DNA from: Ignavibacteria bacterium RIFOXYB12_FULL_35_14
GTDB taxonomy: Bacteria > Bacteroidota > Ignavibacteria > Ignavibacteriales > Ignavibacteriaceae
Length of the DNA stretch: 64,000 nucleotides
Assembly (NCBI GenBank): GCA_001803045.1
Contig: MHAR01000071.1
Location: 1 to 64,000 of the forward strand
Direction: 5' to 3'
Positions 6,765-14,145 of this stretch are shown here, piece by piece; positions within the stretch are counted from its first letter, which is position 1, and each line of letters opens with the position of its first letter. Below the pieces are notes generated by a model. The model was not told the DNA's origin and ran no database searches. It was given only the letters and a program-made list of their open reading frames with translations. The position numbers were made by a program, and so were the translations under genes.

Positions 6765-7553
6765 TTAATAGTTTAATGCCTTCTTCAATTCTCTAACAAG
6801 CTTTAGAGAATTCTTGTACTCACTACTATCATTCATTAGTGATTTTATTATAGCACTACCTACAATTACTCCGCTGCAATATGGAGAAAATAATTTTACA
6901 TCTTCCGGAGATGAAATTCCAAAACCAACTATAAGTGGATTTTTTTTAAGTAAAGCTGAAACATTTTTAAGTTGGTTAAGAGTTTCATCTTTATGGAGTA
7001 TTTTTTCCCCTGTTGTTCCTGTCATGCTCACGTAATACAAAAATCCTTGACTAAGCTCATCAATTATTTTTATTCTCTCTTCAGAAGTAGTTGGAGTCGC
7101 CAATAAAATTACTTCCAATCCATTAAATGAATGGCAGAAAAAACTATCATATTCATCAATAGGCACATCGGGGATTATGACTCCATTTACCCCACAGTTT
7201 ATGGCATCTGCAGTAAATTTATTCGCACCATAACTTAAAACCGGATTCGCATATCCCATCAATATAATCGGTTTCTCAGTTTCCTTTCTGATAGCTTCGA
7301 CAAACGAAAATGTTTTTTCGATATTAATACCGTTTTGTAATGCTAAATAAGAAGAGTGTTGAATCGTCGGTCCATCAACTAATGGATCGCTAAAAGGAAA
7401 ACCTATTTCGAGAATATCTGCTCCAGCATCCAGGACAATCAAAGCCAGTTTAGTAAAATTGTTTTTATTTGGAAATCCACTTGTGAGAAATATTGAAAGA
7501 ATTTTCTCCCCACGAGCATTTTTATTTTTAATATAATCTGAGATTAATGACAA
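6765..7553 (-). CDS. trpA: Tryptophan synthase alpha chain
   Basis: This is the last gene of trpEGDCFBA. The 262-residue TIM barrel cleaves indole-3-glycerol phosphate to indole and glyceraldehyde-3-phosphate. The catalytic Glu lies in DILEIGFPFSDPLVDGPTIQ (E at about 47), and the catalytic Asp lies in the same segment (DPLVDGP). The phosphate-binding loop includes VGFGISSPEDV. It follows trpB with a 50-base gap. Indole is channelled to TrpB in the alpha2-beta2 complex. Confidence 0.97.
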   Translation of the reverse strand: MSLISDYIKNKNARGEKILSIFLTSGFPNKNNFTKLALIVLDAGADILEIGFPFSDPLVDGPTIQHSSYLALQNGINIEKTFSFVEAIRKETEKPIILMGYANPVLSYGANKFTADAINCGVNGVIIPDVPIDEYDSFFCHSFNGLEVILLATPTTSEERIKIIDELSQGFLYYVSMTGTTGEKILHKDETLNQLKNVSALLKKNPLIVGFGISSPEDVKLFSPYCSGVIVGSAIIKSLMNDSSEYKNSLKLVRELKKALNY

Positions 7554-7603: not shown

Positions 7604-8809
7604 TTACATATTCTCATTCAGTTTCTCTCTAATAGTAGTTAAATCCTTATCGCCTCTGCCGCTAATATTAACGACAATCAAATCCTCAACTTTAGTTTTC
7701 GGCATAAGATATTCCAGGTAAGCAACAGCATGTGCTGTTTCAAGAGCAGGTATTATACCCTCATATGTAGATAATAGCTTTGTTGCTCTAATTGCTTCGT
7801 CATCAGTAACGGACGCGTAATTAACTATTGACTCATCTTTAAGGTGACTGTGTTCTGGACCAACTCCCGGATAATCAAGCCCGGCAGAGATTGAATGAAC
7901 AGGTGATACTTGTCCATTTTCATCCTGAAGTAAATAGGTTTTCATTCCATGAAAAATTCCTTCTTTGCCTAAAGAGAGAGTAGCGCTATGATGATTTGTA
8001 TGAAGACCTAATCCGGCGGCCTCGATTCCAATTAGTTTTACACCATGATTAATAAAAGGATAAAAAATTCCAATGGCGTTGCTACCTCCTCCAACACAGG
8101 CAAGGATGTAATTTGGCAATCTATTCTCTTGAGCAAAGATTTGTTCTTTTGTTTCTATTCCAATTATTGATTGAAAATCCCTAACCATCATGGGATATGG
8201 ATGGGGACCGACAACTGAACCTATGATGTAATGCGTATCTTTAACATTTGTAACCCAATCTCGAATTGCTTCATTCGTGGCATCCTTTAAAGTTTTACTC
8301 CCGGATGTTACTGGTATTATTTTTGCTCCAAGAAGATTCATTCTAAAAACATTTAAACTCTGCCGCTCCATATCAACTTCACCCATATAGACCACGCACT
8401 GAAGACCAAATTTAGCACATACAGTTGCGGCTGCAACTCCATGTTGTCCGGCGCCGGTTTCAGCAATAATTCTTTTCTTCCCTAATTTTTTGGCAAGAAG
8501 TATTTGTCCAAGAGTATTATTGATTTTGTGTGCGCCAGTATGACAAAGATCTTCTCTTTTCAAATAAATTTTGCCTTTTCCATAAAACTTGGTAAGGTTC
8601 TCTGCAAATGTTAATGGAGTCGGTCTGCCCGAATAATTTTTGTGGAGAAGATTTAATTCATTGTTAAAATCTTTGTCATCCTTTAGTGCTAAATAGACTT
8701 CTTCTAACTCTTGAAGAGGCGTAATTAAAGTTTCAGGAACAAATTTGCCCCCGTACTTCCCGAACTTTCCTCTTTCATCCGGTAAATTGTATTTAGTTGA
8801 TGTGGTCAT
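7604..8809 (-). CDS. trpB: Tryptophan synthase beta chain
   Basis: This 401-residue PLP enzyme condenses indole with serine. The PLP lysine is in [13 protein letters not shown] (about residue 90), and the phosphate-binding loop is [10 protein letters not shown]. The C-terminal monovalent-cation/serine region is GRGDKDLTT. The N-terminal [16 protein letters not shown] is typical of TrpB1. It is transcribed with trpF (13-base gap) upstream and trpA downstream. Confidence 0.97.
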
Positions 8810-8822
8810 ACAATCCTAATGA

Positions 8823-9440
8823 TCATAATTTATGCTTTAAATAATTAATCTTATTAAAAAACTCATTCAATTTATTCTTATCTTTTTTCCCCGGCACAAT
8901 TTCAACCGAAGATGAAAGATCTACGGCTTTAGGTTTGATCTGAGTAAATATGTATTCTATATTTTCTGACGAAACCCCACCAGATAAAATTATTTTATGT
9001 CGTAGTGAAATTGGTATTTTTTCCCAATCGAATTTTTTCCCTGTCCCTCCATATTCATTTACGGAATACGAATCAAGCAAGTATGAGACATCTTTATATT
9101 TAGATAGTGTTGAGTAATCAAAACTTTCATCTATTCTAAAACTTTTAATGACTGGAAAATCAACATTTTTTAATGTGTTTGGCTTTTCATCCCCATGAAG
9201 CTGAACTGCATTCAATCTAACTGTTGAAGCTATCTCGTTAATATTTTTAGCGGATTCATTTACAAATACACCGACTTTAACAGTAAAAGGAGATAATTTT
9301 TCAATTATCTTTCTTACAGCTATAGGCTCAATGTACCTCTTGCTTTTTGCATAAAAGATAAAACCCAAAGCATCTGCACCCAAATTTTCACATAGTGAGG
9401 CATCATCAATGTTTGTAATACCGCAAATTTTAACTTTCAA
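8823..9440 (-). CDS. trpF: Phosphoribosylanthranilate isomerase
   Basis: This 205-residue TIM barrel performs the Amadori rearrangement of phosphoribosylanthranilate. The N-terminal VKICGITNIDDA carries the catalytic Cys, and the catalytic Asp is in the LLDSYSVNEYGGTGKKFDW segment. The phosphate-binding end is LSGGVSSENI, followed by AVDLSSSVE. It overlaps the 3' end of trpC by 11 bases, which suggests translational coupling. It is a separate gene, not fused to trpC as in enterobacteria. Confidence 0.96.
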   Translation of the reverse strand: MKVKICGITNIDDASLCENLGADALGFIFYAKSKRYIEPIAVRKIIEKLSPFTVKVGVFVNESAKNINEIASTVRLNAVQLHGDEKPNTLKNVDFPVIKSFRIDESFDYSTLSKYKDVSYLLDSYSVNEYGGTGKKFDWEKIPISLRHKIILSGGVSSENIEYIFTQIKPKAVDLSSSVEIVPGKKDKNKLNEFFNKINYLKHKL

Positions 9441-10224
9441 TTTGACACCATTCTTTAAGCTCTTTTAATTGTGCTTTGATGTCCTCTGCTTTCATCAAGT
9501 ATTCACCTACAAGGATTGCATTTGTCCGTGCATTCTTTAAGCGTTTTACATCAGATTGACTATTTATGCCGCTCTCGGAAACAACGTAAACTATGTTAGG
9601 TATCTTTTGAGATATTTCTATAGTGGTTTCGAGATCAGCTGAGAAATTCTCCAGGTTTCGATTATTAATTCCAATTAACTTATTAACATCAAAACTTATT
9701 TTTTCCAATTGAGCTTCTGAATGTAGCTCGAGTAATACTTCCAAACCACATTCATAGGCTGCATGAGTGAGTTCATTAATTTGATTTTTGGTTAATGCCT
9801 CAGAAATTAGAAGAATAATATCTGCACCAAATGATTTAGACTCAAAAACCTGATAAATGTCAATTATAAAATCCTTGCGTAGCAATGGAGCTCGTTTATC
9901 TTTGGCTATATCTGATAAGTATTGCAAATCTCCTTGGAAGAAATTTTTATCAGTCAGGATTGATACAGCTTCAACACCTTCATCGAAGTAGATGTCGGCA
10001 ATTTTTTTATGATTAAAATCTTCCCGGATTATTCCCTTTGATGGACTAGCTTTTTTTATTTCGGCAATGATAGAAATGGTTTTGCTTTCTTTAAGTGAGT
10101 CTATCAAGCTTAAATGTTTTGTATTGAAGAATTCCATTTCTTTAAAGGAATTCAGAGTGTAGAATTTCTTGAGCCTAGAAACCTCTTCTTTTTTAACTTC
10201 AAGTATTTGATTCAAAATATTCAT
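9430..10224 (-). CDS. trpC: Indole-3-glycerol phosphate synthase
   Basis: This 264-residue TIM barrel closes the indole ring. The signature IIAEIKKASPSKGII contains the catalytic lysine and phosphate-binding residues. LLRKDFIIDIYQ and IGINNRNLENF follow, and VSESGINSQSDV and ILVGEYLMKA form the phosphate site. Its ATG overlaps the last base of trpD's stop and its end overlaps trpF, so D-C-F are tightly coupled. Confidence 0.97.
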   Translation of the reverse strand: MNILNQILEVKKEEVSRLKKFYTLNSFKEMEFFNTKHLSLIDSLKESKTISIIAEIKKASPSKGIIREDFNHKKIADIYFDEGVEAVSILTDKNFFQGDLQYLSDIAKDKRAPLLRKDFIIDIYQVFESKSFGADIILLISEALTKNQINELTHAAYECGLEVLLELHSEAQLEKISFDVNKLIGINNRNLENFSADLETTIEISQKIPNIVYVVSESGINSQSDVKRLKNARTNAILVGEYLMKAEDIKAQLKELKEWCQIES

Positions 10225-11237
10225 TATTTATTGCTGTAGGCCTTAAGTTCATTTAACTTTCTTAGCGCTGCACCGCTGAGTATTGATTCCTCCGCGATTT
10301 CTGTACATTCGTCTAGGTTATCTGATTTACCGGCACAATACAAAGCAAGAGCTGTATTAGCAGCAATTGTATGAAATGCACCGTTGCGTGTTTTATTCTC
10401 AAATACATCAAAAATTAACTTTGCATTTATTTCAGATGTATCACCTTTGATTTGGGATTCATCTACTAAAGGATAATTAAAAGTGGCATTTGAGATCACG
10501 TAGTTTTTTACTTTTGATCCTTTATTGTATTCGTAAATTGTTGTTGAATCGCCAAGATTTATTTCATCATATTTGTCGTTGCTGCATAAGAAACAGACCT
10601 TCTCCAAATCTAAGTACTTTGCAGCTTCCGACATGGTTTTTGCAGCAGATGAACTGAATGTCCCTATTATTTGCCTTTTAACTCCAGCCGGATTAGTGAG
10701 GGGACCCAGCATATTGAATACAGTTTTGATACCCAATTCTTTTCGGACAGGTGCAGCATACTTCATTGCCGGATGATAAAGAGGTGCAAATAGGAATGCA
10801 ATTCCGATTGTGTTCAATGCTTCTTCAGATTGTTCCGGCAACAGATTTACATTTATTCCAAGTTCCTGAAGAACATCCGCACTTCCACATTTGCTGGATA
10901 TGGAGCGGTTTCCATGTTTAGCTACTTTAACTCCCGCACCAGCAGCTGCGAAAGCTGTAGCAGTTGAAATATTAAATGATCCTGAATTATCGCCCCCGGT
11001 TCCGCACACGTCAATTACATTATTATCACTGCAATTTATTTTAATACTTTTATCTCTCATAGCTTGTACAGATCCGGCAATTTCTTCCGCTGTTTCACCT
11101 TTTGATTTTAAGGCGATTAAAAATGCAGCTAAATGCGAGTTGTTTACATTTCCGTTCATTATTTTTGTCATTGCTGCATAGGATTCTTCAAAAGTTAAAT
11201 CCTCTCCGGCAATTATTTTTTCTAAATATTCTTTCAT
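10224..11237 (-). CDS. trpD: Anthranilate phosphoribosyltransferase
   Basis: The 337-residue protein transfers phosphoribose from PRPP to anthranilate. The PRPP/Mg loop is CGTGGDNSGSFNIST (about residues 79-93), followed by KHGNRSISSKCGSADVLQELG. The second substrate region is FNMLGPLTNPAG. It stands alone and is not fused to trpG, which ends 27 bases upstream on the same transcript. Confidence 0.97.
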   Translation of the reverse strand: MKEYLEKIIAGEDLTFEESYAAMTKIMNGNVNNSHLAAFLIALKSKGETAEEIAGSVQAMRDKSIKINCSDNNVIDVCGTGGDNSGSFNISTATAFAAAGAGVKVAKHGNRSISSKCGSADVLQELGINVNLLPEQSEEALNTIGIAFLFAPLYHPAMKYAAPVRKELGIKTVFNMLGPLTNPAGVKRQIIGTFSSSAAKTMSEAAKYLDLEKVCFLCSNDKYDEINLGDSTTIYEYNKGSKVKNYVISNATFNYPLVDESQIKGDTSEINAKLIFDVFENKTRNGAFHTIAANTALALYCAGKSDNLDECTEIAEESILSGAALRKLNELKAYSNK

Positions 11238-11264: not shown

Positions 11265-11834
11265 CTAACTTTCCAACCAATTTTTAATTATGTTCTTTCC
11301 TTCATTAGTTAAAATGGATTCAGGATGAAATTGGATTCCCTCAACAGGATAATATTTATGCCTTACTCCCATGATGATTCCATCATCTGCTTCTGCAGTT
11401 ACTTCAAGAACATCCGGTAAAGTTTCCTTCTCGATAATTAAAGAATGATATCTTGTCGCTTCAAATCTTTGAGGGATATTTTTATAAATTGTTTTTTCAT
11501 CGTGATTAATTAACGAAGTTTTACCATGCATCAATACCGGGGCTTTAACTACTTTCCCGCTGTAAGCAATGCCTACCGCTTGATGACCTAAACATACTCC
11601 AAGAATAGGAATTGATTTACCAATCTGCTGAATTAAAGTCAGCGAAATTTTCGAATCTTCGGGTTTACCCGGACCGGGAGAAATTAAAATTTTATCCGGA
11701 CTGAGTTCAGTTATTCCGGTTTCATCAATTTCATCATTCCTTTTAACAACAAGTTGATTCTCGAAATTTCCCACAAGCTGAACAAGGTTGTATGTAAATG
11801 AATCGTAATTATCTATCACTAGGATTTTCATCAA
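11265..11834 (-). CDS. trpG: Anthranilate synthase component II (glutamine amidotransferase)
   Basis: This 189-residue class I amidotransferase supplies ammonia to TrpE. The N-terminal DNYDSFTYNLVQ, the oxyanion/nucleophile motif PILGVCLGHQAVG (catalytic Cys) and the GIQFHPES His-Glu pair complete the triad. The start lies 26 bases inside trpE, so translation is probably coupled to give matched subunits. The same domain can serve folate synthesis (PabA), but its position in the trp operon argues for TrpG. Confidence 0.96.
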   Translation of the reverse strand: MMKILVIDNYDSFTYNLVQLVGNFENQLVVKRNDEIDETGITELSPDKILISPGPGKPEDSKISLTLIQQIGKSIPILGVCLGHQAVGIAYSGKVVKAPVLMHGKTSLINHDEKTIYKNIPQRFEATRYHSLIIEKETLPDVLEVTAEADDGIIMGVRHKYYPVEGIQFHPESILTNEGKNIIKNWLES

Positions 11835-13305
11835 TTACCTCCGCATATTTCAATGCATTAACCATGGCTGCCGATTTATTTTTGATTTCCTTTGCTTCAA
11901 GCTCGGGCTTACTGTCTGCAACAATACCGGCTCCTGCTTGCCAATAAACATCATCACCTTTCGCGAATAATGTTCTTATTGTAATGCACATATCTAAGTC
12001 GCCCGAAAAATCAAAATAGCCAACTGCACCTGCATAGATATTTCTAGCTTTTTTCTCGTACCGATCAATCAGTTGTATTGCTCTTATTTTTGGTGCACCG
12101 GTAACAGTTCCGGCAGGGAAGCATGACATCAAAGCATCAATTGAGTCTTTATCATCGGCTAATTCACCCTCAACTTTTGAAACAATATGCATCACATGAG
12201 AGTATCTTTGAACTTTCATATGCTCTGTTACTTCCACTGAACCAAATTTGCAAACCCGACCAAGATCATTCCTGCCGAGATCTACAAGCATTGTATGCTC
12301 TGCTCTTTCTTTTGGATCATTAATTAGATTTTCTTCAAGGCTCTCATCATCCTCACTGGTTTTTCCTCTCTTTCTGGTTCCAGCGATTGGAAGCACTTGT
12401 GCTTTTCCATTTTTAACTTTTAAAAGATCTTCTGGAGATGTTCCAAGAATTGTTAAATCATTTTCAAATTCGAGGTAATACATGTAAGGTGACGGGTTTA
12501 TAATTCGCAGTGCTCGATATACATTCAACAGATCGCCTTTATACTTTGTTGAAAATCGTTTTGAAAGCACTATCTGAAAAATATCGCCTTCAATAATATT
12601 CAGCTTACCAGCCTCAACCATCTTATAAAATTCATTGGGATTAAATTCTTCATTAATTTCTCCGAGCGCTGAAAAATCCGTTAAGTATTCAATTGGTCTT
12701 TTTAGATCAAGTCGAAGTTTAAGTAATTCACTTTTTGCTGAATAGAATGCGGTCTCCAAGTTTGTTTGTTCGTCAACAAATACATTTGAAATTAGAATTA
12801 TCTGATGTTTGTGATGATCAAAAGCAAGGATTGTTTTATAAATTCCAAATATCGAATCGGGATTATCAAAAACTTCATCTTTAGCTTGTTTATGAGAGTC
12901 AAACTCTATTACTCTTTCAATCAATGAAATGTTTTCGTAGCCTAAAAAACCTACAATTCCACCAGTAAAATCCGGTAATCCATCAATTTTAGGTTGTCTG
13001 TATTTTTTTATTTCTGCTCTTATATATTCAAAAATAGATTTATCATAAACGTCAGTACTTCCATTTGTTTGCTCAGTTATGCTATATGCTTTATTACTAA
13101 AAATTTTTATAGGGTTTTGACCAATGAAAGAGTATCTAGCCATGTTAGCGGATTTTTCAACTGATTCAAGCAGGAAATTCTGTTTACCTTTTTCTCTTAT
13201 CTTCAAATAAGCTAAAACCGGAGTAAGGAGATCTGCCGTAATAACTTCATAAACCGGAATTAAGCTGTATTCTTTTGCATATTCTTTGAATTGTTGGAGA
13301 TTCAT
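11809..13305 (-). CDS. trpE: Anthranilate synthase component I
   Basis: The 498-residue chorismate-utilising enzyme makes anthranilate with TrpG. The N-terminal domain includes FLLESVEKSANMARYSFIG, in which LLES-type residues form the tryptophan feedback site. The catalytic domain shows FQIVLSKRF, LPIAGTRKRGK, LVDLGRNDLGRV and CFPAGTVTGAPKIRA. It is the first structural gene of the operon. A Trp-codon-rich leader and a terminator lie immediately upstream, so both attenuation and feedback inhibition are likely controls. Confidence 0.97.
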   Translation of the reverse strand: MNLQQFKEYAKEYSLIPVYEVITADLLTPVLAYLKIREKGKQNFLLESVEKSANMARYSFIGQNPIKIFSNKAYSITEQTNGSTDVYDKSIFEYIRAEIKKYRQPKIDGLPDFTGGIVGFLGYENISLIERVIEFDSHKQAKDEVFDNPDSIFGIYKTILAFDHHKHQIILISNVFVDEQTNLETAFYSAKSELLKLRLDLKRPIEYLTDFSALGEINEEFNPNEFYKMVEAGKLNIIEGDIFQIVLSKRFSTKYKGDLLNVYRALRIINPSPYMYYLEFENDLTILGTSPEDLLKVKNGKAQVLPIAGTRKRGKTSEDDESLEENLINDPKERAEHTMLVDLGRNDLGRVCKFGSVEVTEHMKVQRYSHVMHIVSKVEGELADDKDSIDALMSCFPAGTVTGAPKIRAIQLIDRYEKKARNIYAGAVGYFDFSGDLDMCITIRTLFAKGDDVYWQAGAGIVADSKPELEAKEIKNKSAAMVNALKYAEVIDENPSDR

Positions 13306-13374: not shown

Positions 13375-13410
13375 AAAAAACCCCTCCCAGCTGACTGAGA
13401 AGGGTTTTTA
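13375..13410 (-). terminator. Intrinsic terminator of the trp attenuator
   Basis: On the minus-strand transcript, CCCUUCUCAG pairs with CUGGGAGGGG (with G-U pairs) across a four-base loop, extended by flanking A/U pairs and ending in a U run. It lies 20 bases after the leader peptide stop and before trpE. GAGAA after the leader stop could pair with UUCUC of the terminator's 5' arm as an antiterminator. Confidence 0.88.
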
Positions 13411-13430
13411 ATTGTAATATTTCTCTAGGG

Positions 13431-13526
13431 TTACTGGGTCATATTAATATGCTTACAGTGCCACCACCAAGAATTCTCAATGGTTTGATTTTTTAAATGA
13501 TAATATGATTCAGTGATATTTTTCAT
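13431..13526 (-). CDS. trpL: trp operon leader peptide with three consecutive Trp codons
   Basis: A 31-residue ORF (starting MKNITESYYH and ending HINMTQ) contains Trp-Trp-Trp at residues 20-22, followed by His-Cys. It lies just upstream of a strong intrinsic terminator and then trpE, the exact architecture of ribosome-mediated attenuation. When charged tRNA-Trp is scarce, a ribosome stalled on the Trp codons would favour an antiterminator. When Trp is plentiful, the ribosome reaches the stop and the terminator forms. It was found by reading the leader directly and is too short for usual gene calls. An AGAAG sequence lies a few bases before the ATG. Confidence 0.88.
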   Translation of the reverse strand: MKNITESYYHLKNQTIENSWWWHCKHINMTQ

Positions 13527-13537
13527 AATTACTTCTG

Positions 13538-13567
13538 CAAATATAGAACACTTTATTTGTTTGTCAA
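13538..13567 (-). promoter_or_regulatory. Putative trp operon promoter
   Basis: Reading the minus strand, TTGACA (13567-13562) is followed after 16 bases by TATATTTG (13545-13538). The second element matches both a sigma-70 -10 box and the Bacteroidota TAnnTTTG element. Transcription would begin only about 5-10 bases before the trpL ATG, so the leader mRNA has a very short 5' end. Confidence 0.6.
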
Positions 13568-13605: not shown

Positions 13606-14145
13606 TCAAATCTCCCACGCAAAAATAAACCCTAATCTTAACATGTTCTTGAAAATAAATGTTTTGCGTTTAGGAGGATATTCATAAATCGAATTGCTGT
13701 ACCCAATTACTTTGGATGAAGTTGGTACATAAAAACCCAATTCAAGTGATAAAAATTGAATTAACCTAAAACCAGCTGAAGCATTTAACATGAGGATGGA
13801 GGCATATTCAGTTCCCCAGCTATTTGAACCACTTCCCCCTGTGTTTGAATGGTACAACATTCCAACAATGATGTAAAAAGGGTCATGAAATATATACTTA
13901 GTGGAAAGCCCGACTTCTAAGCCAGTAAAACTAACCATGGCTGTACTTCCAACCTTAATTTGTAAAGCTAAAGGATTTAATGGGATATAGGCAGCATTCA
14001 AATGATAGGAAATAGGTGACCCCTCACCACCCATTAGTCCGCTTTACAGTCTAACCCAATTTGCCTCAAGATCAAACCCAAGTTTGAAGCTTTGAGCATT
14101 GACTATTGTAGAACAAACTAGAACGAATATTTTTAACAGTTTCAT
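13606..14145 (-). pseudogene. Outer-membrane beta-barrel-like protein interrupted by an in-frame stop
   Basis: An ATG at 14145 opens a typical signal peptide (MKLLKIFVLVCSTIVNAQ) and mature start. Codon 34 is TAA (14044-14046), and the same frame then continues without further stops for 142 more codons (MGGEGSPISY onward). The downstream part alternates hydrophobic and polar residues like an outer-membrane barrel and ends near an aromatic-rich FIFAWEI terminus. Total length would be 179 residues. A single base substitution explains the stop. A sequencing error or stop-codon readthrough are the alternatives. No close family was recognised. Confidence 0.7.

Follow-up and report, generated by a model that had tools for sequence, protein, structure and literature searches.

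This locus raises the question of whether the short stretch before trpE is a complete ribosome-mediated attenuator and, if so, how its parts are arranged. The window (the whole 64,000-nucleotide stretch of DNA analysed here) belongs to a contig of 35% G+C in a genome of 4.1 Mb. A sequence-only reading had proposed that a 31-codon ORF with three consecutive Trp codons, having a strong promoter just upstream and an intrinsic terminator just downstream, stands before trpE. All of these features were found at the coordinates listed below, on the minus strand. The operon has the order trpE-G-D-C-F-B-A, with all genes in one direction:

11809..13305, minus strand: trpE, anthranilate synthase component I (TIGR00564, above cut-off)
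11265..11834, minus strand: trpG, glutamine amidotransferase of anthranilate synthase (TIGR00566)
10224..11237, minus strand: trpD (TIGR01245)
9430..10224, minus strand: trpC (NF001377)
8823..9440, minus strand: trpF (NF002298)
7604..8809, minus strand: trpB (TIGR00263)
6765..7553, minus strand: trpA (TIGR00262)

The TIGR00564 match confirms the gene behind the leader as trpE, whose start at 13305 lies 70 nt past the terminator. The elements before it are, in the direction of transcription:

13562..13567, minus strand: TTGACA, -33/-35 element of the trpL promoter; TTGA is kept in most order relatives
13538..13545, minus strand: -7 element TATATTTG, Bacteroidota TAnnTTTG type, last base 11 nt 5' of the trpL ATG
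13431..13526, minus strand: trpL leader ORF, 31 codons, MKNITESYYHLKNQTIENSWWWHCKHINMTQ; counterparts at 41/42 trpE loci
13501..13514, minus strand: region 1, ACTGAATCATATTA, leader codons 5-9; pairs with region 2, with covariation
13461..13469, minus strand: regulatory codons TGGTGGTGG, the WWW of leader codons 20-22
13433..13446, minus strand: region 2, the part pairing with region 1, TAATATGACCCAGT, extending to the leader stop codon
13421..13425, minus strand: downstream part of region 2, GAGAA; with CCCAG (13438-13434) it forms the 5' side of the putative antiterminator
13395..13409, minus strand: region 3, AAAAACCCTTCTCAG, 5' arm of the terminator; TTCTC within it (13401-13397) is the antiterminator partner of GAGAA
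13376..13390, minus strand: region 4, CTGGGAGGGGTTTTT, 3' arm of the terminator; its CTGGG pairs with the CCCAG of region 2 in the antiterminator

The frame upstream of trpL (window 13606-14145, minus strand) looks disrupted: a signal-peptide-like start (MKLLKIFVLVCSTIVNAQ...) is followed by an in-frame stop after codon 33 and then by about 145 open codons.

The leader ORF (13526-13431, minus strand) is the only ORF of 10-45 codons containing WWW on either strand of the window, and no WWW micro-ORF arose by chance in 20,000 shuffles of the upstream region. Conservation of the Trp codons in related leaders had been named as a check. We took TrpE orthologues with their upstream DNA from 41 genomes across genus, family and order. 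A short ORF with 2-4 tandem or near-tandem Trp codons precedes trpE at 41 of the 42 loci, window included, the leader of L041 being weak or marginal; at L019, a relative with trpE, no leader was found. At L045 the automatic pick took a wrong upstream ORF, the likely leader being MNRLFVNHHSTPNCAGRFSWWWGGYCFDA. The pattern also holds at four additional loci, taken from named genome records. The leader peptides of the order (23-34 aa) diverge, but recurrent features are runs of W, TG/ETYY close to the start and MTQ at the C terminus, and the Trp run stays in frame across the order while the surrounding sequence varies. The peptide has no match in Pfam or NCBIfam, and no tandem-Trp leader was found upstream of the two other chorismate-binding genes of the genome, which are trpE paralogues.

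The promoter, TTGACA-16-TATATTTG (13567-13538, minus strand), has 11/12 matches to the sigma-70 consensus, in agreement with the strength attributed to it, and its -7 box is also an exact fit to the Bacteroidota type TAnnTTTG. A strict TAnnTTTG ends 2-16 nt 5' of the trpL ATG in 24/45 relatives, against 1.4% in shuffles; when a variant base is allowed, such a box is found 2-13 nt 5' of the ATG in 32 of the 45 leaders. In promoters of this type the transcript usually starts 4-8 nt past the box. If this holds in the window, where the box and the ATG are 11 nt apart, the predicted 5' UTR would measure about 3-8 nt and trpL is probably nearly leaderless, so that the earlier suggestion of an almost leaderless trpL is borne out as a sequence pattern. 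In the whole genome, 33 sites have such a promoter adjoining an ATG, compared with 16 for the reversed control, and among the 30 promoter-ATG sites that we read trpL and hisL are the only short ORFs with a terminator after them.

An ORF starting at, or almost at, the transcript 5' end (predicted in the window) is shared with trpL of Sinorhizobium meliloti, whose trp operon is likewise without repressor control (PMC7298713). The differences are that the S. meliloti system is alphaproteobacterial, that its peptide has 14 aa and that its transcript begins at the ATG, while the start in the window is a prediction from the -7 box. Since the products of that leaderless trpL (peTrpL/rnTrpL) act in trans (PMC7298713), and termination would here too set free a small RNA of about 150-160 nt, we also considered a trans role, besides attenuation, for this RNA or for the leader peptide. 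We judge this improbable: the conserved positions of the peptide are mainly W and those that RNA pairing needs (TG/ETYY, NMTQ), and nothing tested indicates a trans target.

The intrinsic terminator that had been placed just downstream of the ORF lies at 13409-13376 (minus strand). It has a 15-bp stem (arms CCCTTCTCAG/CTGGGAAGGG) with a 4-nt loop, runs into T and has a folding energy of -20.3 kcal/mol. A consensus scanner for terminators did not pick it up, the probable reason being that the T run belongs to the stem. The leader RNA folds with z = -2.98. As the upstream frame (13606-14145) is on the same strand, the hairpin could in principle be a plain terminator of that gene, with a chance ORF and no regulation. 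This is very improbable, given that a strong promoter lies between the upstream gene and the leader, that the ORF exceeds chance expectation and that a helix competing with the terminator covaries, as described next.

Folding of the leader RNA had been proposed as a way to find an antiterminator, and a competing fold indeed exists, is conserved and covaries. Region 1, which in a genus mate reads ACTGAGTCATATTA, pairs with region 2 (there TAATATGACTCAGT), which extends to the leader stop codon. In the putative antiterminator, region 2 and the following TTGAGAA pair with TTCTCAG..ACTGGG of the terminator. Covariation was counted on a 21-sequence alignment, with 500 column shuffles and slid registers as controls; L041 was left out of the structure counts, as both its leader and its terminator are unconvincing. 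The cells changed on both sides numbered 22 for helix 1:2 (8.7 in shuffles), 13 for the antiterminator helix 2:3 (4.4) and 14 for the terminator helix 3:4 (3.0). In no case was any of the 500 shuffles as high, and each helix beats every slid register. Column shuffles ignore relatedness, and we therefore ran a second control in which pairing partners were swapped between species. Own partners reached a mean of -15.7 kcal/mol against -10.7 for swapped ones in helix 1:2, and -16.4 against -12.1 kcal/mol in helix 2:3, with 0/20,000 permutations as good for either. At L027, where the leader ACTGAGTCATATCGTTA ends early, region 2 persists past the stop (TAACGATATAACTCAGT), and the same is found in some other species; this suggests that in those species it is the RNA pairing, not the peptide, that is preserved.

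The energetics of the antiterminator need a comment. In the window the 2:3 helix is interrupted, consisting of two short helices around internal loops, and its duplex is less stable than the terminator (-15.6 vs -20.3 kcal/mol), so that antitermination would have to be kinetic, as is usual for leader-peptide attenuators. Folding the RNA downstream of a ribosome stalled at the Trp codons gave a weak antiterminator of -2.9 kcal/mol; in the comparative view this value is misleadingly weak, because the calculation cut off the start of the terminator 3' arm, which the antiterminator uses. Another GAGAA, at 13478-13474 just 5' of the Trp codons, was tried as the antiterminator element and rejected: it would sit beneath the stalled ribosome, and the conserved copy is instead the downstream one (13425-13421).

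A terminator in the leader could serve any sensor of Trp, and another explanation is therefore that TRAP, a T-box, a repressor or a riboswitch drives it, the ORF being incidental. Searches of the genome found no TrpR or TRAP homologue, while the positive controls matched, and at gathering score the window contains no T-box or other curated Rfam family. The Trp run kept in frame over the order amid changing sequence also speaks against an incidental ORF, and we consider this explanation to have hardly any probability. With a conserved Trp leader, covarying competing helices and neither a TrpR nor a TRAP gene, it is very likely that the trpEGDCFBA operon is controlled by ribosome-mediated transcription attenuation at this element.

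As to how this attenuator would work, the transcript start, the translation of the leader, the ribosome positions and the response to Trp are what we infer from the sequence. Transcription would begin a few bases 5' of the trpL ATG, and ribosomes would translate the leader while it emerges. When Trp is scarce, the ribosome would stall at the UGG codons 20-22, between regions 1 and 2; helix 1:2 would stay open, leaving region 2 free to pair with region 3 plus the first bases of region 4. This antiterminator (CCCAG:CTGGG and GAGAA:TTCTC) would pre-empt the terminator, and the operon would be transcribed. When Trp is plentiful, the ribosome would reach the stop codon and cover region 2, 3:4 would form and transcription would stop at the U run; without translation 1:2 would close and 3:4 would form again. 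The ribosome footprint is assumed to be like that of E. coli. With such a footprint and the Trp codons in the loop, the anatomy suggests that the stalled ribosome parts region 1 from region 2 but leaves the latter uncovered, that a ribosome at the stop codon covers region 2, and that each state would then have the expected outcome.

This arrangement differs from that of the E. coli trp attenuator (trpL, RF00513). The two share a tandem-Trp leader peptide, three mutually exclusive helices and a terminator before trpE. However, in E. coli the Trp codons are inside region 1, the peptide has 14 aa compared with the 31 codons of the trpL in the window, and TrpR, not found in the genome studied here, also controls trp. 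Elf and Ehrenberg likewise place the regulatory codons of a classical attenuator within region I (PMC1183508). The enterobacterial Trp_leader model RF00513 gave no match in the window even at E <= 10. In the window, the two arms of helix 1:2 are formed by the first leader codons and the stop-codon region, and the Trp codons lie in its loop. We must also consider that the same attenuator has the classical layout, with the Trp codons as the 5' arm of 1:2, in which case the long pairing of first codons with stop region would be secondary. In other families of the order the Trp stretch does pair partly downstream (4-11 expected bp in many), and the leader of the TrpB-like gene of this genome has the classical layout. 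Against this, the expected pairs between Trp codons and downstream region are about zero in the window and in nearly all members of its family (0.1 in the window, while the same calculation gives 5.7 for E. coli trpL); the codons before Trp have 14.4 expected pairs in the window, and pairing of the first codons with the stop region amounts to about 14-28 bp and shows covariation. We regard the classical layout as unlikely here and prefer the one with the Trp codons in the loop, which is clearest in the window's own family, since in families f2 and f3 of the order part of the Trp stretch enters the helix.

The suggestion that a case outside Proteobacteria would be unusual was too strong. Trp leaders of Bacteroidetes have already been described as Rfam RF01692, 'Bacteroid-trp' (Weinberg 2010, PMC2864571), and many other Bacteroidota have Trp-rich leaders before trpE. 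The window shares with RF01692 that it is a Bacteroidota Trp leader RNA in which a UGG run is followed by alternative helices. At gathering score Rfam has no match in the window, and it took a lax search to reveal the likeness: the window aligns with RF01692 end to end, at 26.3 bits and with mismatched stems, whereas the gathering score is 49. At that score none of 20 order relatives passes, while 4/20 loci from elsewhere in Bacteroidota, taken as positive control, do. RF01692 also differs in having its UGG codons in the 5' arm of the modelled stem, where the window has them in the loop of 1:2, and the peptides beside its matches have 18 aa, shorter than those of the order. As judged from sequence, the mechanism is a known one, and the predicted layout is distinct enough from both RF01692 and E. 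coli to be called a variant.

To survey its distribution we used R1, a covariance model built from the present trp leader. R1 picks up leaders that had been held out, from other families of the order, and matches at E <= 0.001 in 75/116 order genomes, with a single match in 73 of these; genomes without a full trpE (e.g. G002, G003, G007, G016 and G022) have no R1 match. The window type of layout appears common to Ignavibacteriales and is not yet in Rfam. In the class outside the order (loci L060-L076 and L095-L106) most trpE genes lack a Trp-rich leader, but many more distant Bacteroidota have one; WWW leaders, of about 16-31 aa, precede many of the trpE genes in the phylum at large. We note in passing that this patchiness across class and phylum may reflect repeated loss or gain. 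Bacteroidetes/Chlorobi were reportedly named by Vitreschak, in 2004, among the groups with candidate attenuators.

A broader proposal is that Ignavibacteriales own a near-leaderless class of attenuator that is not in Rfam and that has region 1 as the ORF start, region 2 straddling the stop, the codons in the loop and the stalled ribosome as a wedge. Its scaffold, or close variants of it, would be reused: before trpE order-wide, before hisG in this genome and, in relatives, before trpB, DAHP synthase (Phe/Tyr/Trp) and cysH (Cys). We consider the chances of this proposal evenly balanced. For an order with few genetic tools, the locus offers a complete, covariation-supported attenuator with a testable layout, and it adds to the evidence that control of trp by leader peptides is a widespread Bacteroidota strategy and not a proteobacterial one. 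A start codon near the predicted 5' end also bears on the timely loading of the first ribosome, in a group where Shine-Dalgarno sequences are little used.

Leaders of other pathways also came to light. Those before DAHP synthase, cysH and trpB were reached via R1, while the hisG and TrpB2 leaders are in this genome; each is a sequence observation in a single genome. The hisG leader MKNILALYHHNHHHYFTSMHR (L135:1197-1262, plus strand; genome contig C50 near 7237) starts 8 nt past TATTTTTG, with the same promoter spacing as trpL, and would be near-leaderless; its first codons form a helix with the stop region, and downstream lies a terminator. It is likely a his attenuator of the same design as trpL. 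A second Trp leader of the genome, VNLRNQNIANNWWWWRIISPPS (L191:1517-1585, plus strand; genome contig C40 near 26450), has a GTG start a few nt past a TTACTTTG box and is followed by two hairpins with T runs and then by a TrpB-like gene, TrpB2 (TIGR01415). Its Trp codons pair downstream, as in the classical layout, and the arrangement suggests that TrpB2 is under Trp control. In an order member, a Trp leader, MKKLLNILSNSLQNWFWWSVPGIV, stands directly before trpB (L186, G301:C73:4732-4875, plus strand). The leader MKTMNSTYYFNFTWSFYGFSRFYICPWILVN (L183, G044:C46:54239-54392, minus strand), before DAHP synthase, has Phe, Tyr and Trp codons on the same scaffold and possibly senses all aromatic amino acids. 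Two Cys-rich leaders, MKNKNLHINLSGLTAMCCCCMMDSSLWKGTY (CCCC; L182, G288:C12:31780-31934, minus strand) before cysH and MKDIQINMCLCAVGCCKTSAEVFV (L181, G019:C12:18748-18879, plus strand) before the gene of a large secreted protein that has a CGPC motif, are possible Cys attenuators.
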